Shown piece after piece: positions 26,867 to 50,301 of a stretch of DNA of 60,960 bases. The DNA is from Candidatus Gastranaerophilales bacterium Zag_111. GTDB lineage: Bacteria; Cyanobacteriota; Vampirovibrionia; Gastranaerophilales; Gastranaerophilaceae. Location: positions 164,370-225,329 of the forward strand of contig MOYD01000060.1 in the NCBI GenBank assembly GCA_001899395.1, read 5' to 3'. How positions within the stretch are numbered: position 1 is the first letter of the stretch; the number at the start of each line of letters is the position of its first letter. A program made the position numbers and the translations under genes. The notes beneath the pieces are model-generated. The model was not told where the DNA came from. It searched no databases and saw only the letters and a program-made list of their open reading frames with translations.

Positions 26867-27829
26867 TCAACGAGGACGATGCACGCATATCGCCGCGCGG
26901 CAGCGCGAGCGGGCAAAGGCCTCGGGGGTCAGGAACTCTCCCAAAGCGGCGGAAATCGCTTTCGCCTGTTTCCATTTTGGCGGCACGCCGGGCGAGCGGC
27001 TCAACGACGTATCGTGCACCCTGTATTCCAGCAGCGGCTCCATTATATTGCGCATACGTGCGCCGAACGCCGCCATCTGCACCCAAAGCCGCCAGTCTTC
27101 GGCAACATGATCCGGCCCACTGCCCGTATCCGTGAACCCGCCGGTCTGTTCGAACAAGGCTCGGGAAAACACGGCGCAGGTCAGCATATGATTGCCGAGA
27201 ACCAGATCCTCAAGAAGCGGCGCGGGCATGTTCAGGAGGACCTTTTCCGGCATACCCAGCACCTCGTACCCTGCGGAAACCAGGTCGAACCGGCAGTCTT
27301 CGAGCAGGGCCACGGCTTTTTCCAAATATGTGGGTTTGAGGCGGTCGTCGGCGTCCAGGCAACAAATATAACGGCCCTTCGTTTCGGCAATGCCCCAGTT
27401 GCGGTTTTCGCCCGCAAGCGTTGGCCTGTTTTGATAAAGCACCCGCGTGCGCGGACGCTGAAGGCGGGACAGGATATCCGGCGTGCTCCCATCGGTGGAG
27501 CCGCCGTCGACAACCGTAATATCAACATCGCGCAGCGTCTGCGCAAGAACGGAGTCGACGGCTTCACCAACAAACGCGCCGTAATTATAACAGGGAATGA
27601 TAACGGAGACCAGGGGCGTCCCCGCCGCCGTTTCTTCAAGCCGGGCGGAAGAAGGAAACGGGCATTTCGAAGGACGGGTTGGGAACGGGCCGGGGGGAGA
27701 AACCGGGGACCCGCGCAATTTGGTCGAAAACAGCCGCCAACGGAACGCCGCAAGCCGCCCGAGAGGAGCCAACGTGCCCATCCGAAGGCATTGCCGGAAC
27801 CGGAACCATATGTCCTTGAGCGGCGGCAT
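26867..27829 (-). CDS. Glycosyltransferase family 2
   Basis: 320 residues. A variable N-terminal 70 residues precede the GT-A domain (VSVIIPCYNYGAFVGEAVDS, then VDGGSTDGS, with the metal-binding CLDADDR). The later conserved WRLWVQMAAFG region follows. A nucleotide-sugar-dependent transferase acting on a cell-surface glycan is likely; donor and acceptor are unknown. It is downstream of the GT4 gene by 12 bases, in one operon. Confidence 0.88.
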   Translation of the reverse strand: MPPLKDIWFRFRQCLRMGTLAPLGRLAAFRWRLFSTKLRGSPVSPPGPFPTRPSKCPFPSSARLEETAAGTPLVSVIIPCYNYGAFVGEAVDSVLAQTLRDVDITVVDGGSTDGSTPDILSRLQRPRTRVLYQNRPTLAGENRNWGIAETKGRYICCLDADDRLKPTYLEKAVALLEDCRFDLVSAGYEVLGMPEKVLLNMPAPLLEDLVLGNHMLTCAVFSRALFEQTGGFTDTGSGPDHVAEDWRLWVQMAAFGARMRNIMEPLLEYRVHDTSLSRSPGVPPKWKQAKAISAALGEFLTPEAFARSRCRAAICVHRPR

Positions 27830-27841
27830 AACGATGATTCC

Positions 27842-28972
27842 TCACCCCCCGCGGCTTTCCATGCCCACCCCCGCAGCATCCGACACGGAAATATACAGGT
27901 CCGCCATGATCATGGCCATACGTTCCACGGTGTAATTGGCTTTGACATGCTCGAACGCGGCCAGCCCCATGCGTTCTCGAAGCAACGCGTCGTCCATTAT
28001 CCGTTGGATGCAGGCAACGGCGGCTTCCGGATCGTCCAGCGGAAAAAGTAGCCCTGTTTCATCGGCAATGACCGCATCCACGTTGCCGGGCACACGGCTT
28101 ACCACGGCGGGCACGCCTTCGGCCTGCGCTTCAAGCACCGCCAGGGGCAAGCCTTCACCAAGCGACGTCGAAAGATAGCATCCGGCGCCGCGTAGAAAAA
28201 GACGGATTCCGTTCTGAGGACCGGTAAAAAGAAAATACGGAAGCAAGTCCTCAGCGGCCAACCGCGCCTCAAGTTTGGCGCGTCCTGCTCCGTCGCCCAC
28301 CAGGATGAACCGGCAGGCGTCCAGGATGCCGCGCTCGCGCATGGCGCGTGCTATGGGCACCAGGGCATCGCTGTTCTTGGCATCGTCAAAACGGCTAACA
28401 TGCACAATGGTAAATGGGGACGGCACGGGAGAGGGTTTGAAACCGCCGCGCACTTCGACACCGTTGGGAATTATAAGCAAGCGCTTGCCCTGAAGGCCAA
28501 AATTAACGACCAGACGACCTTCGCTCGGTGAAACGGTAACATTGACGCGGCTCACGGAGGCAAGAATGCGCTCCTCCAAAAGGTAGAGGACACGCGGCAG
28601 TGCCGCTTGCGGTACGTGAATCCCATGGAACGAATGCACACAGGGAACGCCCGTCACCAATGAAGCCAACCGCCCGTAAATACCGGCCCCACGCCCGTGC
28701 GAGTGGATGATCTGGATACGCTGCTCACGCAGCCAGTGCACTAAACGCACAAAAGCGGCCAAGGACCAACGGCGCTGCGGTATGGACTGGCAACGGCCGA
28801 GGCCCGCGGACTCCACAAACCGGTCCCAGTATGGTTGCTTCTGCGGGGCGGCGACATAGGATTCGATCCGCTTTTGGGGCAGATGCTGCAATAACTGCCA
28901 AACGTGCTCTGGACCCCCGCCGATCAAGGAGGAAGCGGTGATGTGCACGACGCGCAAAGGCGGGGTCGGCAT
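27842..28972 (-). CDS. Glycosyltransferase family 4 (GT-B fold)
   Basis: 376 residues. The N-terminal Rossmann domain has a glycine-rich acceptor loop (SLIGGGPEHVW) and HSHGRGAGIYGRL. The C-terminal donor domain has IIPNGVEV, VSRFDDAKN and the EX7E-like stretch STSLGEGLPLAVLEAQAEG. It is a retaining sugar transferase, probably for O-antigen or capsule. It is the first gene of a two-gene unit with the GT2 enzyme. Confidence 0.9.
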   Translation of the reverse strand: MPTPPLRVVHITASSLIGGGPEHVWQLLQHLPQKRIESYVAAPQKQPYWDRFVESAGLGRCQSIPQRRWSLAAFVRLVHWLREQRIQIIHSHGRGAGIYGRLASLVTGVPCVHSFHGIHVPQAALPRVLYLLEERILASVSRVNVTVSPSEGRLVVNFGLQGKRLLIIPNGVEVRGGFKPSPVPSPFTIVHVSRFDDAKNSDALVPIARAMRERGILDACRFILVGDGAGRAKLEARLAAEDLLPYFLFTGPQNGIRLFLRGAGCYLSTSLGEGLPLAVLEAQAEGVPAVVSRVPGNVDAVIADETGLLFPLDDPEAAVACIQRIMDDALLRERMGLAAFEHVKANYTVERMAMIMADLYISVSDAAGVGMESRGG

Positions 28973-29323: not shown

Positions 29324-31220
29324 CTATACTTCGAGCCGCGTGCCGATTTCCATGACGTTGGCGGGCGGTATGTTGAAGTAGATCGAAGCGTTCCATGCGT
29401 TTTTGCTCAAAAAGTCAAACAGAGCCCTGCGCCAGGGCCGCATAGCGTCCTCCCTCCCGGTCGCGGCCAGCAACGTTTCCCGCCCGAGATAGAAGGCTGC
29501 GTCTCCCAGACACACCGGCGTTCCCCTTGATTCCTCTATGACCTCGAGCATGTCGGGCTTTTCCATATACCCGTATAGGACCAGCATGCGGTAAAAACCA
29601 ACGTCTTTTTCCTTGTCGTCCAGCACGATGCGCTTTCCGGTTCTGACATAGGGCACGTTCAACGTCTTAAAGGTCAGGATAACCACGATTTCGGGCACGG
29701 CATGGACGTGCGCGGAAAAACTCGCCAGCGGAAGCGGGGCCAGATGCTGGCTCATGGTCATGAAAACGCCCGATCCCGGGCTTCTGGCGAACGTTCCAGC
29801 GTGCAATGAGTCCAAAAAACCGGCAATGGGCATGCTGACGCGCTCAAAGCTGTCTGCCAATCGAGCGCGACCTTTCTTCCAGGTCGTCATGATGCTGATG
29901 ATCAGGACCGAAGCCAGCAGGGGCAGCCAGCCCCCGTCGAGTATCTTGATCAGGTTCGCGCCGAGAAACAGCAGATCAAAAAAAAGGAAAAGGCAAAGCA
30001 GCGGAACTGCCTGCCACAACGGCCAGCGCCAGGCAAAGCGCGTTACCGCGAAGTAGAGGATGGACGTCATCCCCATGGCTCCGGTAACAGCCAGACCGTA
30101 CGCGGCGGCAAGGCCGGTTGAGCTTTCGAATATCAGGACCAGGGCGATACAGGCGATCATGAGCATGGTGTTGATCGTCGGCAGATAGACCCGCCCCTTG
30201 GCCGAGGACGAGGTGTGTACCACCCGCATGCGCGGCAGAAAGCCAAAATGCATAGCCTGCTGGGTAAGGGAAAAGACACCCGTGATAAGGGCCTGCGAGG
30301 CGATGATCGTGGCCATGGTCGCAAGCACGAGCATGGGGATGAGAAAACCTTCAGGCACGGCCCGGTAAAAGGGGTTGTGGGCCGCTTCGGGATTGGTGAG
30401 GATCAGCGCGCCCTGCCCGAGATAGTTGAGAACCAAGGCCGGACAGACCAAAAAAAACCAGCCGTTACGGATGGGCAGGCGGCTGAAATGCCCGAGGTCC
30501 GCGTAAAGGGCCTCATCGCCGGTGACACACAGGATGACCGCGCCCAGCACAACGATGCCATGGAGATGATTAACCTGGAAATAGGCCACCGCATAATGCG
30601 GGCTAAGGGCCGTAAGCACCATGGGATGCTTGAGGATATTGCCTATCCCGATAGCCGCCAGGGCGGTAAACCAGAGGAGCATGACCGGCCCGAAGACGCC
30701 GCCGATTTTTTGCCGTGCCGTGCTTCTGCAGCAAAAAGAGGGCGAGCAGGATGCAACAGGTGAGCGGCACAACGAATCTGTCCGCCGCCGTGGTCGCCAC
30801 GGCGAGTCCTTCCACGGCGGAAAGAACGGAGACGGCAGGGGTGATGATGCCGTCGCTATACAGCAGCGCCGCGCTGCCGAGGGCGAAAAAGGGCAGCGCC
30901 TTGAAAAAAGGCTTGCCCGGCGATTTCTCTATGCTCTCGCGCAAAATGGCCAACAGAACGAAGGTGCCGCCTTCGCCATTGTTGTCCGCCTTGGTGATGA
31001 AACAAACGTACTTGATGGTGATGACCACCATGAGACTCCAGAAAATCAGGGAAAGAACCCCAAGCACGTTGACCTGGTTGACCGCCATGGCGTGCGGCCC
31101 GTGAAAGCATTCCCTGAGCGCGTAAAGCGGGCTGGTGCCGATGTCGCCGAACACGACGCCCAGCGCCGTCACGGTCACGGCGGCCATGCGCGGCGAATTA
31201 GTCTTTCTTTTGTCCGACAT
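29324..31220 (-). pseudogene. kup: Kup-type potassium transporter, frameshifted
   Basis: K+:H+ symporter family, about 630 residues when joined. The start at 31220 follows AAAGGA and runs VTVTALGVVFGDIGTSPLYA through the first five helices to QKHGTAK. There a T6 run on the plus strand (30706-30711) carries one base too many. With five T the frame continues KIGGVFGPVMLLWF and then DEALYADLGHFS, as in Kup, to the C-terminal cytoplasmic domain. As written, translation ends about 190 residues into the protein, soon after the shift. Loss of function, slippage rescue or sequencing error are all possible. Confidence 0.85.
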
Positions 31221-31501
31221 TCCTTTCCATCCGTTTGAGGAAATATCCCGCACCCGACGACAGTCAATACGCTGCCTTCGCCCCACCGATGCGAGATTTT
31301 CGTACGCCATATATCTTTTGCCAACGAATGGGAAGTGCAATCCGATACGAGAGGGCTGAAAAACAAATGCCCGCCTACGAGCGGTTTGCTCTTTGACGTC
31401 ACTATCTGGTGCAAGGGGCGTGACTTGGCGGGAAGACGCTGGACATTTCCATGTAAAATGGAACAATTGAAAAAACGGATTTACGCCCAACCGGAGGCAC
31501 C

Positions 31502-31814
31502 ATGACACGCGACGAAGCGCTCGAATTAATCGAGCGGATGGCTTTTATCCCCACGATCAAAGCCCCGAGCAAAAAAAATACTGGCGGATACCTACAGGGC
31601 TTCGGCGGAGTCGGACGATCCTGTGGAATGGGTGAGAGTCGTGAAGTCGTGCTACGCCCGCATGCATTTCGGCGGCCCGGGTCTCGGCGAGGAAGAGACG
31701 GCATGCGGGGAGTCCGCGAAGAAAAAACTCGAGGCCGAGTTGGGAAAAGCCCTCGAACTTCACCCCGATGCGGTCGAAGCGTACATTACCAAGTATATAG
31801 CCGAGAACATTTAG
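31502..31814 (+). pseudogene. Small hypothetical protein, frameshifted at an A8 run
   Basis: ATG at 31502 with GGAGG nine bases upstream. The frame opens MTRDEALELIERMAFIP and reaches KAPSKK at an A8 run (31571-31578). Dropping one A gives KKILADTYRASAESDDP and then VEWVRVVKSCYARMHFGGPG, ending in ITKYIAENI before the TAG at 31812-31814. The repaired product is about 103 residues, soluble and acidic. I do not recognise the family. It is the same type of lesion as in the dual-CXXC and kup genes. Confidence 0.65.
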
Positions 31815-36336: not shown

Positions 36337-38576
36337 CTAAGCTTCCCGTTGGCTCCAGCGAAGCAGAACGGCGTAGAGAAGATCGGGATCAATCGGCTTG
36401 GTTATGTGGTCGTTCATGCCGTTTTTCAGGCTGGTTTCCCGGTCGCCGCTCAAGGCGTGGGCGGTCATGGCGATGATGGGCAGATCCCTGTATTTCGGGT
36501 TGGCCCGGATACGCGCCGTAGCCGTCAACCCGTCCATTTCCGGCATCTGGATGTCCATCAAAACGAGGTCGAAATCTGCCGCGTTTAGCGCGTTCAAGGC
36601 TTCCTGGCCCGTCCCCACGGTGGTGACGTCGATGCCCTCGGCCGCCAGGAGCTCTTCGGCGATCATCTGGTTGATTTCATTGTCTTCAGCCAAAAGCACA
36701 CGCAGGCCCCGCAAGGGGAGGGCGCCGACCGCGGATGCGTCATCCGCGTTTCCAAAACCCGCCTCCTCCGTTTCGTCATGAACGGCGGCCACCTGGTCGG
36801 CCAAGGGCAGGGTGATGGCGAAGGTAAAGACGCTGCCCTCGCCCGGCGTGCTCTGGCAGGAAATCTCGCCCCCCATGAGCGCGATCAGCCGCTGGCTCAC
36901 GGCGAGTCCCAGGCCGGTTCCGCCATAACGGCGCGTCCTGGAGGAGTCGGCCTGGCTGAACGGCACAAACAATCCGGCTACCTGTTCCTCGGTCATGCCG
37001 ATGCCGGTATCACTCACGGTAAACTGCACCCGGACCTCGCCGGGAAGAACCTCCTGCCTGGCAACGCGGAGCACGATCTTCCCGCCGGGAGAAGTGAACT
37101 TGACGGCATTGTTCAGTAGGTTGAGGATCACCTGGGACAATCGAATAGGGTCACCGAGCAGGTCATCCGAAATTTGATGGTCAACATTGGTATAGAGCCG
37201 CAGGGAAACGGCGCCCGCTTCCATACGGATGACGTCATGCACGTGGAGCATCAGTTTGCGCAGGGAGAATCTCTCACTCATGATCTGCATCCTGCCTGTG
37301 TCCAGCTTGGCATAGTCCAAAATATCGTTGATGATCCGCAAAAGAAGATTGGCGGAACGCTCGGCCTGGCTGAGGTAAGCGCGCTGACTTTCCGAGAGTT
37401 CGGTCTTGCCGAGCAAATAGGACATGCCGAGAATCGCGTTCATGGGCGTACGGATCTCATGGCTCATATTAGCCAGAAATTCGCTCTTGGCCTTGGCGCT
37501 TTCCTCCGCGAGATCGCGAGCCAGGCGCAATTCGTCCTGCGTTTCCTGCATGGCGGCCAGCATGGCTTTCTGCTCGCGCAGGTCGCGGGTATAGCCCACG
37601 ACGATGTAGCCGTTCGCCCGCCGCACGCGGACCAGAGAAACTTCCGTGGGAATCGGCTCCCCGTTCAGTTTCTGGTGCAGCCATTCAAATCGGACTCTTC
37701 CTCCCGCGAAAGCTTCCTGGACTTTCTCCTGGGCGCTTTCGAAAGAAAGGCGCCCATCAGGCTGGTACTCCGGCGACAAAAGAAAAAATTTCGCTAGATA
37801 TTCATCCTTCTCGGCCAGATCGAACAATCTAAGGGCAGCCTCGTTGCAGTCAATGTTGTTGTAGTTTTCGTCCCAAAAAGTACAGCAGAGAGGCGTGGCG
37901 TCGAGCATGATCTGGGTCCGCTGCTCGGCTTCGGCCAGAAATCGCCCGGCTAAGAGCGTGGCCATGTGTGTGCTGACCGTCTGCACCGTTTCCACGTCGC
38001 TGTGTCCGAGCGGCGGCATATATGGCTGCTGCTCGAGAAGCCTGCCGGTCACCAGCACAGCTTCAAGCTCGTTTTGAAGATAGACGGGCGAGGCGATGAA
38101 AAAGGGCAGGGAGAGCGCTTCCCGGAGGAAAACGAAGCGCTCGGCCGGGTCATCGCCGGTGACCAGGACGGGGTTTTGGGATCCAGGAATTCCTGACTCA
38201 AGGCCACACGGCGTTCGGCAATGGCCGTTTCTTCCTCGGCCGGATAGCCCTGAAGCACGGCCGGGCGGAACAACCCGCCGTTTTCCGGCACGAGGATCAC
38301 GGTCCGCTGCATGCCAAGAGCCGCATTGAGCCGGCGGCTCACGGAGAAAAAAAGGTTCTCGTCGTCTATGTGCTTGCCCTGGATGCCGGACAACTCCGCC
38401 ATCAGCCTGAAGCCCCGCCGCTTTTGTTCGAGCTCGTGGCGAATGCGGATGGAGTCGGTGTCAAGACGCAGCATCCTGGCGACGGTCTGTTCGGACAAAC
38501 GGCGTAGGTACTCGACTTCACTGCGCAATTCGTCAAGCTCCCGCTGGGAGATATCCGCTTTAGTGTCTTTTTTCAT
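36337..38576 (-). pseudogene. Hybrid histidine kinase, frameshifted in its GAF domain
   Basis: Start at 38576 (its ATG overlaps the FIST stop). Joined length is about 746 residues: short coiled coil, GAF (about 55-200), PAS (about 220-340), HisKA with the phospho-His in [10 protein letters not shown] near 371, HATPase ([11 protein letters not shown]), and a receiver with Asp in [13 protein letters not shown] near 678. The N-terminal frame reads [10 protein letters not shown] and is then lost at plus-strand GGGG 38170-38173. One more G there restores [12 protein letters not shown] into the rest. As written, only a truncated GAF peptide of about 175 residues and a separate kinase ORF exist. Confidence 0.85.
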
Positions 38577-39779
38577 ACAGGCACACTGAACAGGCAAAAG
38601 ACGCCGGTCCAGTCAAGGACGCGGGGCCTTCCCTGGATGTCGGCGATCTCTACCCCGGTATAAATGCCCAAAAGCGGCGCCCTGCCCGCGACAGTCCTCT
38701 GGACCACCAGGGTATCTTCCATGTCCAATCCTCCGTATCCCGCCGCGCGGCCCGCGCAGTCTATGTACAGGGCGAAAACGGGCCTGCGCCCGTCAATGCC
38801 TGCGAACAGAGCTTCCATTTTGGGCGCCATATAATCAAGGTCAAGGCTGCGATACATGACCTGGAACTCGGTTCCCGCAACCATGTCGGGCTCGAACATG
38901 ACAATCCCGTCCCGTTCCTTGTCGATGCCGAGATAAAGGCGGCTCGCGTAACTGCTTTCGTCGAACTGGCCCCATTTCTCGCTCCCGTTGACGCCGAGAA
39001 TCAGGAAAAATGGATACTGTTCCGGCGTGACGGCGGACCCGAGCAGCTTGTCCATAAATTTCAGGGCCGGCTCATCGTTGATTTCCAGGATGGTCTGCGC
39101 GTCGGATTTAGTCACCGTGTAATAGCCGGTGGCGGGATAACATCCATGCATGATGACGCTGTCGATGCGAACGTCGCCGCCGAAAACCAGCCCCCAGGAT
39201 ACCGTGCTCGCCAACACGGTCGCCAAGCCATTGTCTGGCGGGCGTGCACTGGTAGTCGCCCTGCAGCCCGGCGCCCTTCAGATCGGGGAGAAAACCAAGG
39301 CAATCCTCCATGGCCACCAGGAGGTGGGTAGCCATGACCATTCGCATCTCGCCCTGGGTGCGGTCGATGGCGTCGTAAAAAAGAAGCATCTGCGAATCGG
39401 GCGTTATGCCGAGGGCGGCGAGCTTTTGGCCGAAGCGTTTTCCGGCCTCTGTCTCGCTTCCCGCAAGGCCGCTTTCCGTAAGGATGTCGCAGCGCGCCCC
39501 ATCCAGCCAGAATAAAGCCAGAATTACCTGGTCCCCGGCATAACCGAAGGACGTGTTGCTGATGGCGCCGACGGCTCCGCCCCCGACAATGGGCACATTT
39601 TCGCCGACCACTCCGGCAACGGCGTCGCGCAGGACTTCCGCGTCATGCCGCGCCGTAGCGAACAGCAGAACCAGATCGCAAGGGTCGGTTCGGCCGGCTT
39701 GCTCCAAGGCGGCCCGGGTCGCCTGAAGGCCTGCGCCCCAAGTTACCGGTTTTTCACTATAGCCGACGCCAACACGCAT
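38573..39779 (-). pseudogene. FIST-domain sensor protein, frameshifted
   Basis: About 402 residues when joined, with FIST N and FIST C domains (VGVGYSEKPVTWGAGLQATR; NVPIVGGGAVGAISN; then VIMHGCYPATGYYTVTKSDA and FVLDxTGVF-like end sequence). The N-terminal frame is lost near plus-strand GGG 39240-39242. Removing one G gives CTPPDNGLATVL into the downstream frame. FIST proteins are ligand-sensing partners of signalling proteins, and the four-base overlap with the hybrid kinase gene shows they formed a signalling pair. Both partners are broken. Confidence 0.82.
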
Positions 39780-44832: not shown

Positions 44833-47462
44833 TTACCCAGCGGAAGCATCATCGCGCGGAATGGTCCAGTTTTCCTTCCTGAACATCGTTCCCCGGACCG
44901 TTGCTTTTTTCGCGGGCGAATACACCGTTCTCCCTTCCACCTCTATCTGCCGCCAGCTCGCGTCAAAGTAATGATCCCGTACCCGGTCCGGGCCGGTATA
45001 CGGCTCCTCGATGTCGGGACAGCCGCCTATCGCCCGGCAGGCGATGGCCAGAACGTCGACGGAACTCATCAACGCATCGCTGGTCCGGAACGGCCTCTTG
45101 TCGCCGAGCGGCTTGACCATCAGAAGCGCGTGCGGCCGGCCGGAATGTTCGTAAGGATCGTCGTCGGCCCTGTCGCGCAGGCCGTCCACCGGCATGTCCA
45201 AGGCGGCCCGAAGGCTTCGGCTGTCCGCCTCGCAGTGATCCGAGACCAGGATAATCGTAGTGTTGTCGTAAGCTTCTTCCGCGCGCAACCAGTCGAAGAA
45301 ATCCGCCAGCATGGTCATGACGTGGATTTCGGTATACACGTGCTCGGGGACGACGCCGTTAACCCGTATGGACTGGCCTTCGGTCTCGGGGTAAGGGTCT
45401 TCCACCGGTATCAAGCTATCCTTGGGCAAGTGCCAGAACATATGCGGTAAGGTGCTGTAAAAAAACGAAAGGTCGGGCGGGAAGCATCCGCCCGGAACAT
45501 CCGGGGCAGGAGCCCGAGAGCCGCGCTCTCATACAGTATCCGGGCCATCTCCGCGCCGGTGACGCTGTGCGCAGAGTCAAACAGCCATTTACCCTCCCGG
45601 TACACCGCTCGTTTGGCCATATGGGGCATCGCCTTGAACAGACCCACGGAGATAAAGAAATCCGTGAAATAGCCGCGATACCCCGCCGCGTAGCCAAGGC
45701 CAATCTTTTGCTCCCATTCTTGCCGGAGATCCCACAAATCGGGTTTGTCCAGGATACGCGGCACGTGTCCCCCGGTTTGGCGCGCAAGAATTTCCCCATC
45801 CAGGGGGTACACAGGATGCATGATGCCCGAGTCAAAACCCTGTTCGCCAAAAGAGCGCGGAAGAACCGCGACGGCCTCGCTGAACTTCTGCAACAGCGTG
45901 GTTTCCGGCCGCTGGTTGAGCTTGCCCGGCGTGAAGTCCGGCCCCCCGAAAATGCTCGGCGCGGAAAAGGAGGTGGCGAATCCCGGGGACATGGTGTCAG
46001 GATACCAGGTGAACCCGGCCAGGCGTTCCGCGAGAGAGGGTTTTTCCGCGAGAACTTCTTCCATGTGCCCGCCGGTGAACATGTCGAGAAAAAATATCAA
46101 TACATTGGGTTCGTTTCGGCTCAGACTAAAAAAATCCCGCCGGGCCTGCGCGGCTTCCAACCCGTCGGATACGATTGGCCGGGAAGCGTTATCGGCCCTG
46201 TACACGCTGAAAGCCGCGTCGACGCACAAAAAGAAAGCAGTTGCCGCCAGGGTCAGCGTCAGTTTTTTGCTTTACCGGAAATGGAAAACAACCGCGATTA
46301 TGAGGACAAGGCCGGAAAAAACGGCGGCGTCGACAAGAAACCCGGAAATGTTCCCCAGGTTGCGGGCCTTTTCAAGAAGAGTCCCGTTGATCGCGCCGTA
46401 GTCGCCGGTAAACAGGGTTGAATGGACCAGCGCAATCAGGGCGGCGAGTAGGGCCGCGAAGGTCAGGACCGGCCTGGCGGGCGCAGGCGTCACCACCCGT
46501 AGTGCGGCGCAAAGTAGCAGCCAGAGCAGCAGATACGGCAGCATGGCCATCAGGATATCCCTCACCGGCAGGTTGAAAAAATCCGGTTCGGACACATATA
46601 GCGCCAGCGGCGAAGCTATCAGAACCAGCAGGCCGGTGACAAGTACCGAGAGGGCGAACAGAGAGGCTTCGCCCCTGGCGGACAGAGCGGCATACACGGA
46701 GGCCGGGCCAAATCCGGCAAATCCTTTTCCCTTGGCGGTCGGGGTGAATGTGAACCGCCGGTCCGGCGCATACAGGCGACGCGCGAGCCCGGCGAATTTT
46801 TCCGGCACCAAGCGCTGCCAGACATTGCCGAGCAGCATCAACGCGTTATTGCCGGTCCAGTAAATCAGTAATGCCGAGGGCGCCGCATACAGCAAGGCCA
46901 AAAACAGAGCCGCCACAACTACGCCCTGCAACCTGTCGCGTCGGCCAAAACCGGAAGCGGTGTACAGAGCGCCCAGGTTGCAGAGGGTCATGAGCAGGGG
47001 AAGCGCGTTGAAGCCACCCAGCAAGCCGTCGGGGCGGGAAAGATCGGGGATGATGCCCCAGGCCAAAGCCCGGATGGGCCCGAATGAACCGATCATGTAG
47101 TAAGCGGCGCACAAAAACGGCACCTGCAGGAGAATCCCCACGGACGATCGCAAGGCCATGAGGGGGTTGTAGGCATAGCGCCTGTATAACGCCCGGATAC
47201 GCGCCTGCCGTTCCCCGCCTCTACTCTCACGTTTTATGGCTGCCAGTTGGGGTGCCATGACCTTTTGCACGACTGCTTCCCGGGCCTGCATGGCCATGGC
47301 CATGTGCTTGAGCGGCACAAAAAGGATCGAGCTGACGAGAGACAGGCCGATCAGGGCCGTTCCGTAGCTACCGGTCAGCTCTGAAAGAAAAATGTACAGG
47401 TGCTTGTAGGCCAGTTCCAAGGGAAGGATACTGACGGAATACAGGAAAGACCCCATGCTCAT
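44833..47462 (-). pseudogene. YidC-like membrane domain fused to a sulfatase-fold domain; TAA and frameshift
   Basis: Start ATG at 47462 overlaps the previous stop (ATGA). Part 1 (396 residues to the TAA at 46272-46274) is YidC/Oxa1-like: MAMAMQAREAVVQKVMAPQL, YNPLMALR, LQVPFLCAAYYM, then extra helices. The groove Arg of true YidC aligns with Ser (near residue 45). After the TAA the same frame gives another helix (KKLTLTLAATAFFLCVDA), then an alkaline-phosphatase-superfamily domain: NVLIFFLDMFTGGH, and a probable Thr nucleophile in GFATSFSAPSIFG. A second lesion (A7 at 45459-45465, one A short) precedes LVSDHCEADS. The joined protein is about 877 residues. Confidence 0.72.
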
Positions 47463-48832
47463 GCCCCCTTCCCCTGTTTCGCTCCCTGCCCCTCCAGGGC
47501 CAGGTATGCGCACTTGGCCATAGCCCAGTCCGCGATGAACGCGCCCGAACAGCCGAAGTTGGCGACGGTCTTATCCCGCAACCCGGCCAGTTCCTCGCTA
47601 TCCATGGCCAAGGCTTCGCGTATCAGGCCAAGAAAAGCCGCGCGGGAAAGGGAGCGCAACTCTTCGGGGGTAAGTACCGGCCCTAGGCAGCGTTCCACCT
47701 CTTCTTCCCAGACGTACTCCAGTTCGGCTATCTCGAACTTCTCCCGGTTCAGCATGGGGATGTCCAGGGTCAACACGGGCCGCTTGTACAGGAACGCGAA
47801 ATCAAACCGCACACCGGACTTGTCCGAGATCATCAGGTCGGCTGCCGCGAGCGAAGGCCCACCGTTCACGTCCAGGTCGAGCATCGCGCCATCAAGGGGT
47901 TCGAACTCGTCGCGTAGGGCCTGGATGAACGGCTGCTCCACCTTCAGGGAAAACGGATGAGGCCGGATGATCACCCGGTACCCATCCTCCAGGAGCCAGA
48001 GGATGAACTCCGTTCCGCAGTAAACAAGGCAGTTTTTCTCTCCCCATGAGGGCGCTACCAGAATGACCGGGGGATCAGACATCCCATTTTTAGGCACTAC
48101 GGCGCGGGCCAGTTCATCGAGACAGGGTACCCCTGCGCTGACGCACTCTCGGGCGGGCAAGCCGCGCTTGCGTTCCAGAAGGCGTACGGATTCCCGGTCG
48201 CCGTCTCCCATGAGCAGAAGCGCATTACAGGTATCGTGGGCATTTTTGTAATACAGGGCGACGCCGCCGACGCCGTGCACTACGTGGGCGAGGCATTTGA
48301 CGTGGCGTGGGACGGGCATGGGATAACCGGGAGTGCCGATGTTGGCTGTGGTTTGCAGCATGACAGCGGCCCTGATTCCTGCCGCCCTGGCAAAGGCCGC
48401 AGGCCCCGTGCCGATATACCGCGAGGCCATGTACGGACTTTCAATGGCCAAACCCGGATCCTCGATGTCCATGCTCAGGTAACGGAACGGGTATGCCTTT
48501 TTTAGCAGCGCCTCCACGATGGGCTTGAAGGTGGACCAGTAGATTCTTCCCTCGGAAAACAGCACCAGGTCCTTGTGGTTTGTCTCCGTTTTCCGGGCGG
48601 GACCCGTCGAAAGCCGGTCACGTAGCCCGTACCAGATGTTTTTGCCGAAATAAAGCGCGGTGGTCAGCAAACTGACGCAGAGGTAGATGAGAATGTTCCC
48701 GGTTCCTGGGTCCAAGTAGGCCCAAGCCAGATCCGGAAGGAGGAGGGATACGGCGAAAAGCAGTCCTGCCAGGCCCGCTCCGCGAAGCGGGCCCGTATGG
48801 CGCGTCCCGGAAAAACGTTGCCCTGGTTTCAT
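47459..48832 (-). CDS. CDP-glycerol glycerophosphotransferase (TagF/TagB)-like protein
   Basis: 457 residues; the ATG at 48832 overlaps the previous stop by four bases. The N-terminus has two helices around the motif AYLDPGTGNILIYL, common in exopolysaccharide operons. The GT-B body has HVVHGVGGVALYY, VAPSWGEKNCLVYCG, IIRPHPFSLKVEQP and the TagF-like ADLMISDKSGVRFDFAFL. The family transfers glycerol- or ribitol-phosphate from CDP-activated donors to build teichoic-type polymers. In a Gram-negative cell the product is probably a decorated surface glycan. Confidence 0.85.
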   Translation of the reverse strand: MKPGQRFSGTRHTGPLRGAGLAGLLFAVSLLLPDLAWAYLDPGTGNILIYLCVSLLTTALYFGKNIWYGLRDRLSTGPARKTETNHKDLVLFSEGRIYWSTFKPIVEALLKKAYPFRYLSMDIEDPGLAIESPYMASRYIGTGPAAFARAAGIRAAVMLQTTANIGTPGYPMPVPRHVKCLAHVVHGVGGVALYYKNAHDTCNALLLMGDGDRESVRLLERKRGLPARECVSAGVPCLDELARAVVPKNGMSDPPVILVAPSWGEKNCLVYCGTEFILWLLEDGYRVIIRPHPFSLKVEQPFIQALRDEFEPLDGAMLDLDVNGGPSLAAADLMISDKSGVRFDFAFLYKRPVLTLDIPMLNREKFEIAELEYVWEEEVERCLGPVLTPEELRSLSRAAFLGLIREALAMDSEELAGLRDKTVANFGCSGAFIADWAMAKCAYLALEGQGAKQGKGA

Positions 48833-50301
48833 TCGATTATGGCCTGCAACCGGCGCAGCATGCGCTTGAGCTTGATGTTCGAATAATCGATGTAGCCCCG
48901 TTCCAGTCCCCACAGGCCCCAGACATAGTCCACCAGACTTTCCATTTCCCAAAGCCGGCTTCCCTCGCCCACATCTGTGATGCCGCGGGAGTTGACGAAC
49001 TGTTCGCGAGCTGTCGCGTCCATGCCAGCTTCCAAGATAAAGCTAGCCGTTTCCCAGAGGGGATGCGCGAACCCCGCGTACTCGAAGTCAATGATCAGGA
49101 GATCCCGTCCGTGATCGCCGGAAACGAGAATGTTCTCCAAGGCCAAATCACGATGGCACAATACCTGGGGCTCGCCGTCAAACACATCCGCCCTCTCCAG
49201 CAGCCACGCCCGCTGGGCGGGCGGCGCCGATTCCCCGGTCAGGGATTCGAATTTCAGGATCTGGTCGCGTATCAGCATGGGCGGCAGGGGGGATTCCGCG
49301 GTATGGGGTATGCTGTTCAGCTTTGCCAGTGTCCTTGCCAGACTGCGGAAAAATCTTGGCTCCAGGTCTTCGGAGACCGCCACCCGATGATCCGCCATGA
49401 AACGCGTCATCTTCAACCCGCCGGGAAAGAAGGCCGTTTCCGGGGTTATTCCGAGGTGCCGGATCAGGTTATAGATCACCGGCTCCTGTTCGCGGTCGAT
49501 GAAGGCGTCCGTGCCGTGGCCCGGAATACGCAGACAGCGCATGACACCGGCGTGATCGCGTACCTGCCATGTGCTGTTGGTCAACCCCTTAAGGCGTACG
49601 GGAGGAAAGTCAACGCTGCTTAGTTGGGCAATTTCCTCATGCGTGATCAGGCCGTAGTGCAGGGCGTCCTTGATGGTGTCCGTCTCTTGCAGAAAGGGCT
49701 CTTCGATCAGGGTGGCATAGACCGGGACCGAAGGCAGAAGTCCGAGGACCGCCTCTTCCCAGTAATCATCCAGCGCACAGTGTTTCAGTCCTTCAGCCAA
49801 AGCGGACGCGGTTTCGCCTTCCCAGTAGGAAAGGCCGCACATGCTGTGGCCGGTAGCGGTCCATTTTTCCACCCGGACGATTCGCCCTGTTTCGTCCGTG
49901 AAGACTTCCCATTCCAGACCGTGGACGGTGGGCTGGCAGACGAATTGCGATTTGCCCGGCTGAACCCGCGAAAGCACGTTTTTGCGAAACACCACGTCTC
50001 CGTCTACCAGGAGCGAGCCTTCAAGCCTGTCGACCGCGAGCAGAAGCGAACTGTGCGTATTACGCGTGTCATGCTCCGGGTTGTGGACGAATTCCACATT
50101 GAACTTGTCCTTGAGGTAGACGAACTTTTCCGCCATGTACCCAACCACCAAAGTGATGCGGTCTATGCCACTGTCCCGCAACAAGCGCAGGGTCTGCTCC
50201 ACGATGGGAACCCCGTTGATGGGAGTGAGCGGTTTGGGACAGGAAAAGGAAATGGGCTGAAAACGCCTTCCGACACCGGCGCAGAAGAGAATGGCGTTCA
50301 T
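48829..50301 (-). CDS. LicC-like nucleotidyltransferase fused to LicA-like choline kinase
   Basis: 490 residues. Residues 1-235 form an NTP-transferase (AILFCAGVGRRFQPISFSCP, then PKPLTPINGVPIVEQ, metal site VDGDVVF) like LicC, CTP:phosphocholine cytidylyltransferase. Residues 240-490 form a choline/ethanolamine kinase (LKGLTNSTWQVRD, the Brenner motif CHRDLALENILV, and IIDFEYAGFAHPLWETA). One chain could thus phosphorylate and activate choline or a related alcohol. It is first in the operon with the TagF-like and YidC/sulfatase genes. No licD transferase is visible; the sulfatase-fold protein could fill that role. Confidence 0.88.
   Translation of the reverse strand: MNAILFCAGVGRRFQPISFSCPKPLTPINGVPIVEQTLRLLRDSGIDRITLVVGYMAEKFVYLKDKFNVEFVHNPEHDTRNTHSSLLLAVDRLEGSLLVDGDVVFRKNVLSRVQPGKSQFVCQPTVHGLEWEVFTDETGRIVRVEKWTATGHSMCGLSYWEGETASALAEGLKHCALDDYWEEAVLGLLPSVPVYATLIEEPFLQETDTIKDALHYGLITHEEIAQLSSVDFPPVRLKGLTNSTWQVRDHAGVMRCLRIPGHGTDAFIDREQEPVIYNLIRHLGITPETAFFPGGLKMTRFMADHRVAVSEDLEPRFFRSLARTLAKLNSIPHTAESPLPPMLIRDQILKFESLTGESAPPAQRAWLLERADVFDGEPQVLCHRDLALENILVSGDHGRDLLIIDFEYAGFAHPLWETASFILEAGMDATAREQFVNSRGITDVGEGSRLWEMESLVDYVWGLWGLERGYIDYSNIKLKRMLRRLQAIIE

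Follow-up and report, generated by a model that had tools for sequence, protein, structure and literature searches.

Among the described systems that come close to the gene cassette analyzed here are the Lic-1 pathway (LicA, LicC, LicD) and the Pnt pathway (Ppm, Ppd, AEPT, PntC; PMC6697681). In the excerpted text of PMC6697681, the late steps by which donors of the cytidine monophosphate (CMP)-aminoethylphosphonate type are attached to surfaces are called enigmatic, and the terms sulfatase, YidC, CDP-glycerol (CDP, cytidine diphosphate) and glycerophosphotransferase do not occur in its main text. A literature search of open-licence articles listed no paper that links these families, which counts as weak evidence of novelty. 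Here, we describe a three-gene cassette located in the 60,960 bases at the end of a scaffold of 225 kb deposited for Candidatus Gastranaerophilales bacterium Zag_111 (contig MOYD01000060.1); this whole stretch is called the window. Gene 1 encodes a fusion of LicC-like and LicA-like domains, gene 2 (g2) a Glyphos_transf protein and gene 3 (g3) a YidC-like plus sulfatase-fold protein. The interpretation to which we lean, by a small measure, is that the cassette serves head-group decoration, with g2 and g3 as transfer module for CMP-activated head groups, in the window probably choline. Elsewhere, the g2-g3 pair recurs beside phosphocholine- or phosphonate-activating enzymes and is therefore a good candidate for surface-attachment machinery.

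The three genes follow each other on the minus strand (50301-48829, 48832-47459 and from 47462 down). They are joined by two ATGA overlaps, one between the stop of gene 1 and the start of gene 2 (48829..48832) and the other between the stop of gene 2 and the start of gene 3 (47459..47462), and this arrangement agrees with the first-pass annotation of the window. Gene 1 (48829..50301, 490 residues) comprises a LicC-like cytidine triphosphate (CTP):phosphocholine cytidylyltransferase (approximately residues 1-215) and a LicA-like choline kinase (approximately residues 225-490). Gene 2 (47459..48832) encodes a membrane-anchored protein of 457 residues. For gene 3, the earlier description as YidC-like plus sulfatase-fold protein held for the domains (60KD_IMP, then Sulfatase) but not for a single open frame. 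An in-frame TAA (46274-46272) and a shift of reading frame between about 45459 and 45441 distribute the YidC part and the sulfatase domain, itself in two pieces, over three open reading frames (ORFs) of the minus strand. Piece 1 (46272..47462) carries the YidC-like domain (Pfam 60KD_IMP, E 1.7e-17) and further membrane helices and ends at the TAA. Piece 2 (45411..46271) continues in the same frame with the N-terminal half of the sulfatase-fold domain, including the metal-site Asp and the conserved Thr. The Pfam search of the window proteins gave no family for this piece, and it was assigned by alignment, by blastp to loci L043, L044, L045 and L051 and by colinearity with residues 398-666 of the orthologue in locus L143. 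Piece 3 (44833..45441) lies in the other frame and contains the C-terminal half with the Asp-His motif (Pfam Sulfatase, E 5e-4, below the cut-off); it is colinear with residues 675-870 of the same orthologue. L143 belongs to genome G168 of the Desulfovibrio piger family set and is the nearest relative. It shows the same gene order with the cassette whole, and its g3 is one intact frame of 871 residues that is colinear with the three window pieces. The whole cassette is also present in D. piger ATCC 29098.

Co-occurrence of the cassette genes elsewhere, a check proposed in the first-pass annotation, was found across a set of 80 loci and two family sets of genomes. The 80 loci are the best of 164 confirmed loci from a scan of species genomes with the g2 alignment A1, and they include near-copies (e.g., L045/L051; L082, L084, L099 and L114 repeat contigs of L017, L018, L016 and L019), none of which was dropped from the tallies. 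A close-relative scan of genome contigs with the window g2 alone returned 15 stretches that matched the pattern, but none of them was confirmed. Organisms named in the record titles of the 80 loci are Desulfovibrio, Treponema, Brachyspira, Cloacimonadota, Gastranaerophilales, Synergistales, Sutterella, Lachnospiraceae and others. A g3-type ORF was located at most 320 bases from g2 in 69 loci and within 7 kb in 71. Nine loci had no g3 nearby; in L058 and L096 g2 lies near the contig end, and the genome of L041 carries g3 near the end of another contig. Among the 199 genomes of the D. piger family set, g2 was detected in 13, g3 in 14 and both in 13 (Fisher p 2e-19; this and the other Fisher p-values are inflated by shared descent). 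Both genes were adjacent in 12 of these 13 genomes, and in the exception (G271) g2 is located at a contig end. The corresponding numbers for the Treponema putidum family set (195 genomes) were 121 for g2, 124 for g3 and 118 for both (p 3e-41). In the family of the host of the scaffold, which is low in guanine plus cytosine (GC), nine of 146 genomes gave a g2 match and the window was one of them; a YidC-sulfatase gene of 851-914 residues adjoins g2 in seven of the other eight, and the remaining one has g2 at the end of its contig. A plasmid collection searched with the L094 g3 as sole query gave no match. The first-pass annotation had considered the combination unusual in a Gram-negative organism with LptD and MlaA. 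Both proteins are indeed encoded in the window, but this view was too narrow since the pair spans many groups including Lachnospiraceae.

Two loci show unusual arrangements of these genes. In L080 (1-18832, T. putidum), g2- and g3-type ORFs, some of which are broken into pieces, form a long tandem array. In L113 (1060-11940, a Clostridiales metagenome-assembled genome), twice in tandem, the YidC domain is a gene of its own and g2 is continued in one frame by membrane helices and by a domain with a sulfatase-like look when read by eye; the latter was not counted as sulfatase fold because Pfam and PDB searches gave nothing. Ppd and a Ppm with two fused cytidylyltransferase domains come next in L113.

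The genes beside the pair differ from locus to locus. With profiles for LicC, LicA, TagD, Ppm and Ppd that were built from loci of this analysis and checked against Pfam or NCBIfam on a sample, a supply or activation gene was detected within 7 kb of g2 in 51 of the 80 loci (phosphonate 19, otherwise LicA 10, LicC 9 and TagD-like 13). Ppm itself was present within this distance in 17 loci, and the phosphonate label of L052 and L054 rests on a Ppd-type profile match. Eleven of 13 g2 loci from 12 further genomes of the D. piger family had a supply gene. In control sequences (179 kb of other sequence of the window's own assembly, G000, together with the remainder of the window), there was one LicC-type match and none for LicA, TagD, Ppm or Ppd. 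Some assignments exceeded the NCBIfam cut-offs, namely PEP mutase and phosphonopyruvate decarboxylase in L019 and 2-aminoethylphosphonate aminotransferase in L098. A transporter of BCCT type separates LicAC from g2 in L047. In the T. putidum family set, 62 of the 195 genomes have Ppm and 55 of these 62 have g2 (p 8e-8). Among the matches listed, 25 genomes have the mutase domain no farther than about 0.7 kb from g2, which leaves room for the fused N-terminal domain of Ppm; these distances come from the listed matches and nominal gene lengths, and the smallest gap of 237 (G523) stems from a truncated Ppm match and is really about 465 by the listed ends. Ppm fused to PF12804 and/or PF01467 adjoins g2 in, for instance, L113, L073 and L098. 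Thus, a genomic link to Ppm was seen for the g2-g3 family but not for the window.

We also placed these labels on a quick g2 tree of 93 rows (103 loci, minus two without g2 and nine duplicates or fragments, plus the window). The LicA label changed six times, at least four of which were forced by starred branches, so that it arises in several separate places. For the phosphonate label we counted 16 changes, at least ten of them forced by starred branches. The LicA and TagD labels were clustered beyond shuffles. In our interpretation, the pair persists and its supply genes are exchanged; noisy labels would also blur the tree pattern.

Several neighbors of the pair are noted for their own sake. 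In L070 (5850-7910), L106 (4298-6118) and L111 (7174-8979), a LicC domain is fused to an aminotransferase I/II-fold domain without Ppm nearby; the aminotransferase domains of L106 and L111 are CobD-like (NCBIfam matches below the cut-off), which may indicate a route to CDP-ethanolamine or CDP-aminopropanol. A small gene that by eye resembles a methyltransferase stands beside the TagD-like gene and g2 in L016/L099 (same contig) and beside g3 in L021, and its product might methylate a group of the phosphoethanolamine type. In L060 (5201-6262), g3 and g2 come directly after an HD-domain response regulator; L062, L065, L067 and L107 have a gene of comparable size ahead of the pair, and none of these loci has a supply gene nearby.

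In the window, g2 matches Pfam Glyphos_transf with 26.7 bits (cut-off 22.1), and 44 of 48 aligned members of the family (alignment A4, 48 of the listed g2 ORFs) match this model. Simple hydropathy predicts two membrane helices with AYLDPGTG between them, followed by a domain of 394 residues, which is predicted to be cytoplasmic because the short inter-helix loop lacks Lys and Arg. The g2 family profile matches the structures of Cps3D, TarL and TagF over the donor-site half of PF04464. The earlier classification of gene 2 as TagF/TagB-like thus stands for the donor half, but the polymer-making role that had been deduced from it was not supported.

These structural matches would also suit a teichoic-acid-like polymer, for which g2 polymerises polyol phosphate as TagF/TarL, gene 1 adds choline and g3 is an LtaS-like enzyme or an export factor. 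LtaS is among the PDB matches of the g3 domain, and a TagD-like cytidylyltransferase, which could mean CDP-glycerol, is the sole recognized supply in 13 of the 80 loci. However, the window g2 covers only positions 143-290 of the 367 positions of Glyphos_transf, and choline phosphate and aminoethylphosphonate are unfit as chain units because they lack a second hydroxyl to extend. Moreover, the TagD-like gene of L094 stands together with g2-g3 and a PhnS2/T2/U2-like importer of the 2-aminoethylphosphonate type (below the NCBIfam cut-offs). Mutually similar genes of like size occupy the importer place in L071, L076 and L083, and the permease was typed in L136, the contig of L076. An ordinary teichoic acid polymerase was rejected as principal explanation in view of the LicA and phosphonate supply, the products of which do not form chains, and the polyol-phosphate chain of the first-pass annotation was not borne out. 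A polymerase role is unlikely for the g2 family as a whole, and we consider the complete polymer scheme improbable.

The cassette may instead work on single head groups, and here gene 1 indicates which one. Its Pfam domains are NTP_transf_3 and Choline_kinase. The LicC half has its best PDB match in S. pneumoniae LicC (1jyk, E 1.9e-24; next nucleotidyltransferase 6.4e-9), and 3dxq and 4r77, choline kinases of LicA type, are the best matches of the kinase half. In this PDB comparison, gene 1 grouped neither with sugar nucleotidyltransferases nor with unrelated aminoglycoside kinases, and the proposed fusion of a LicC-like cytidylyltransferase to a LicA-like kinase was supported. For LicA, the excerpted text of PMC4364537 names T29, D176, V178, Y197, E213, W251, W254 and Y268 as choline-site residues. 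Counted along the 4r77 alignment, T29, D176, Y197, E213, W251 and W254 correspond to T241, D385, Y408, E424, W461 and W464 of the window protein; the place of V178 is taken by Ala, and a counterpart of Y268 was not assigned along this alignment. Choline appears the likelier substrate of gene 1 and ethanolamine a possible one. LicC, LicA and g2 form a single frame of 981 residues in L042. The LicCA proteins of L078 (5309-7084), L087 (7179-8954) and L090 (7183-8955) have about 65 extra N-terminal residues, and this extension matches helix-turn-helix models of Pfam in L078 and L087, perhaps for self-regulation of the operon.

CDP-choline formed by LicCA needs a transferase, and LicD was absent from all seven Desulfovibrio genomes with LicCA and g2, two of which are D. 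piger isolates; the linked candidates are genes 2 and 3. LicD was present in four of the 12 genomes tested overall (two Firmicutes and two Spirochaetes), all of which carry the g2-g3 pair. The absence of LicD in the Desulfovibrio genomes also speaks for a rival reading, by which g2 alone decorates a cytoplasmic lipid-linked glycan in a LicD-like manner, its donor chemistry being that of LicD, and g3 is a separate exporter or glycan phosphotransferase. We regard this as unlikely, since g3 accompanies g2 in nearly every genome of the two families whatever the supply genes are, and since the four genomes mentioned above carry LicD and the pair together.

CDP-choline might also be consumed in phospholipid synthesis, with LicCA supplying phosphatidylcholine formation and genes 2 and 3 as unrelated passengers. 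In Treponema denticola, the LicCA proteins serve such a CDP-choline route to phosphatidylcholine, and genomes G149 and G157 have three CDP-alcohol phosphotransferase matches each. However, the two D. piger genomes have two such matches, while three relatives that carry neither g2 nor g3 have two, one and none, and the cassette genes overlap in the window and stay together elsewhere. With no extra CDP-alcohol phosphotransferase in D. piger, the phosphatidylcholine route was rejected, and we give it hardly any weight.

Sulfatases use a Cys or Ser nucleophile that is converted to formylglycine, and in phosphotransferases of the LtaS/EptA type a sulfatase-fold domain preceded by membrane helices carries Asp/Glu, Thr, His and Asp-His as a set. 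When we aligned 45 of 78 g3 candidates (alignment A3), all 45 matched the 60KD_IMP (YidC) model. In D. piger numbering, Asp433 was conserved in 45 of 45 proteins, Thr473 in 41 (Ser in the other four), His643 in 44, and Asp715 and His716 in all. The window pieces hold the Asp, the Thr and the Asp-His motif, and the His falls at the frame change. Thus, the position of the sulfatase nucleophile, as judged by invariance, is occupied by Thr in 41 proteins and also in the window piece, and the LtaS/EptA-type set is present behind membrane helices, with Thr placed by invariance and not by structure alignment. The profile of the g3 domain also matched MCR-1 (4e-4). R366 of E. coli YidC, the groove arginine of the insertase, has no Arg or Lys counterpart in any of the 45 aligned proteins. 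According to the excerpted text of PMC10491306, YidC and other insertases scramble lipids in vitro.

The earlier assignment of the window to a Desulfovibrionaceae lineage agrees with its DnaB, for which identity is 87% with the G168 protein and 64% with the D. piger protein, whereas the values for two other DnaB pieces from its own assembly are 39 and 53%. Directly 5' of window base 1 there are two N (G000 C60 164368-164369; L033 4369-4370), and the GC content is 58% in the window vs 37-39% in sampled scaffold stretches upstream of this gap. The N gap, the GC jump and the DnaB identities therefore place the window with another organism, and by these sequence features it is a Desulfovibrionaceae-like contig that was wrongly scaffolded across the gap onto low-GC sequence in a metagenome assembly. 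Two adjoining glycosyltransferase genes (26867-28972, minus strand) are possibly surface-glycan genes of the same organism.

Such an origin bears on the question of whether the locus in the window is decaying or mis-assembled and has no present function. Besides the stop and the frame change in g3 and the N gap with GC jump at the scaffold junction, two of the other window genes that were examined, the K+ transporter gene kup (29324-31508, minus strand) and a FIST-domain gene (38573-39779, minus strand), are each split between two frames, and because of these two genes the break in g3 may be decay or assembly error and nothing special to this gene. Compared with L143, identity is 81% for gene 1, 74% for gene 2 and 75, 61 and 76% for the g3 pieces. 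The proportion of nonsynonymous differences (pN) is 0.12 and 0.16 for genes 1 and 2 and 0.15, 0.23 and 0.15 for the g3 pieces, with a synonymous proportion (pS) of 0.54-0.61 throughout. The g3 pieces are thus constrained like genes 1 and 2, and any loss is therefore recent or an assembly error. A nonfunctional window copy is a real prospect that we hold somewhat below even, and the cassette as a type is unaffected by it.

For head-group decoration by the intact cassette, the following scheme may be proposed. Gene 1 would phosphorylate choline (possibly ethanolamine) and activate the product with CTP to CDP-choline. At the inner face of the inner membrane, g2 would then move the phospho-group from the CMP-activated donor to an acceptor in the membrane, for which a lipid carrier or a lipid-linked glycan would be the simplest choice. 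Subsequently, the YidC-like part of g3, as an adapted insertase, would pass or present the lipid-linked intermediate across the membrane, and the extracytoplasmic, Thr-dependent sulfatase-fold domain would transfer the phospho-group to the final surface acceptor, as enzymes of the EptA/LtaS type do. Genes 2 and 3 would be the constant part of this machinery and the supply part would be exchangeable, with LicCA for choline, Ppm-Ppd and an aminotransferase or alcohol dehydrogenase with fused cytidylyltransferases for phosphonates, or a TagD-like enzyme, which in some loci is accompanied by a 2-aminoethylphosphonate-type importer. Gene content, co-occurrence and change of the supply genes are observations; the reactions, the order of the second and third steps, the flipping and the acceptor are inferred. 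We are fairly confident that the g2-g3 pair handles CMP-activated head groups, and moving or transferring phospho-groups at the membrane, as the first-pass annotation had suggested, is most likely the role of gene 3. A cytoplasmic donor-using enzyme and an extracytoplasmic Thr phosphotransferase joined to a YidC-like domain, both predicted, suggest a membrane intermediate, but a lipid-linked intermediate flipped by the YidC-like part is a rather doubtful proposition.

A number of findings weigh against this scheme. Gene 3 is interrupted in this contig, and the Sulfatase model matches only 29 of the 45 aligned g3 proteins (E 0.001). In the PDB, the g3 domain is matched best by sulfatases (8.6e-8, 2.2e-7), with LtaS close behind (2.8e-7, 9e-7), and the Thr nucleophile was assigned by invariance and spacing because the significant PDB alignments cover the His and Asp-His part but not the Thr. 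For gene 1, NCBIfam gave no LicC match but sugar-nucleotidyltransferase and other kinase models far below the cut-offs, and its LicC pocket is mixed, as the D105 place holds Asp like LicC and the D192 place holds Glu like PntC; in T. denticola PntC, both places are Glu (excerpted text of PMC6697681). In the T. putidum family set, three genomes have g2 without g3 and six g3 without g2, and seven of the 62 Ppm-bearing genomes lack g3 and seven lack g2. No supply gene was recognized within 7 kb in 29 of the 80 loci, including a tree block of mostly Treponema loci, and importers, TagD-like enzymes and iron-type alcohol dehydrogenases (Fe-ADH) remained below NCBIfam cut-offs. On the g2 tree, the phosphonate and LicC labels were not clustered beyond shuffles (83 and 500 of 500 as low), and the control segments also gave weak matches of g2 type (2.9e-9) and YidC type (4.5e-9).

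The pair occurs in D. piger, which lives in the human gut, and in treponemes of the mouth. The cassette predicts phosphocholine, which mimics the host, on the surface of a sulfate reducer from the human gut that lacks LicD, the usual transferase. Since the pair stands beside CMP-activating enzymes and LicCA in several phyla, g2-g3 are concrete candidates in culturable organisms for phosphonate attachment. If this is true, the YidC-like domain would be part of a head-group transfer enzyme. In its widest form, g2 and the YidC-sulfatase would be a widespread two-protein machine that accepts phospho- and phosphono-head groups of any kind in CMP-activated form (choline phosphate, aminoethylphosphonate, hydroxyethylphosphonate), loads them on a lipid carrier, moves them over the inner membrane by means of its adapted YidC domain and hands them to surface glycans. 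Such a machine would supply the late steps still missing from phosphonyl tailoring and would lead to surface phosphocholine independently of LicD; we put this forward tentatively, as a generalization that may well fail.

Compared with known systems, the cassette shares with the Lic-1 pathway the homologous kinase and CTP-activation domains of gene 1, but LicA and LicC are fused here, and in the seven Desulfovibrio genomes a Glyphos_transf and YidC-sulfatase pair stands in place of LicD. With the Pnt pathway, as far as the excerpted text of PMC6697681 describes it, the g2-g3 loci have in common the logic of CMP activation and, in other loci, Ppm fusions beside g2, whereas the supply in the window is choline and not phosphonate. 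The C-terminal donor half of g2 resembles the CDP-polyol polymerases TagF, TarL and Cps3D (PF04464), with aligned Arg/His and Asp-x-Ser motifs. In contrast to these polymerases, g2 has its own conserved N-terminus with a membrane hairpin and AYxDPGTG, lacks a match in the N-terminal half and stands with other CMP-activating genes. Like LtaS, EptA and Neisseria PptA, g3 carries an alkaline-phosphatase-superfamily domain with the Asp, Thr, His and Asp-His set after membrane helices, and its profile matches LtaS and MCR-1; it differs from them by the YidC-like domain fused ahead of this domain and by its partner, a CDP-dependent transferase predicted to be cytoplasmic, and sulfatases match the profile about equally well. 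Finally, g3 shares the 60KD_IMP domain with the YidC/Oxa1 insertases in all 45 aligned proteins but lacks an Arg or Lys at the R366 place and is fused to a phosphotransferase-type domain.

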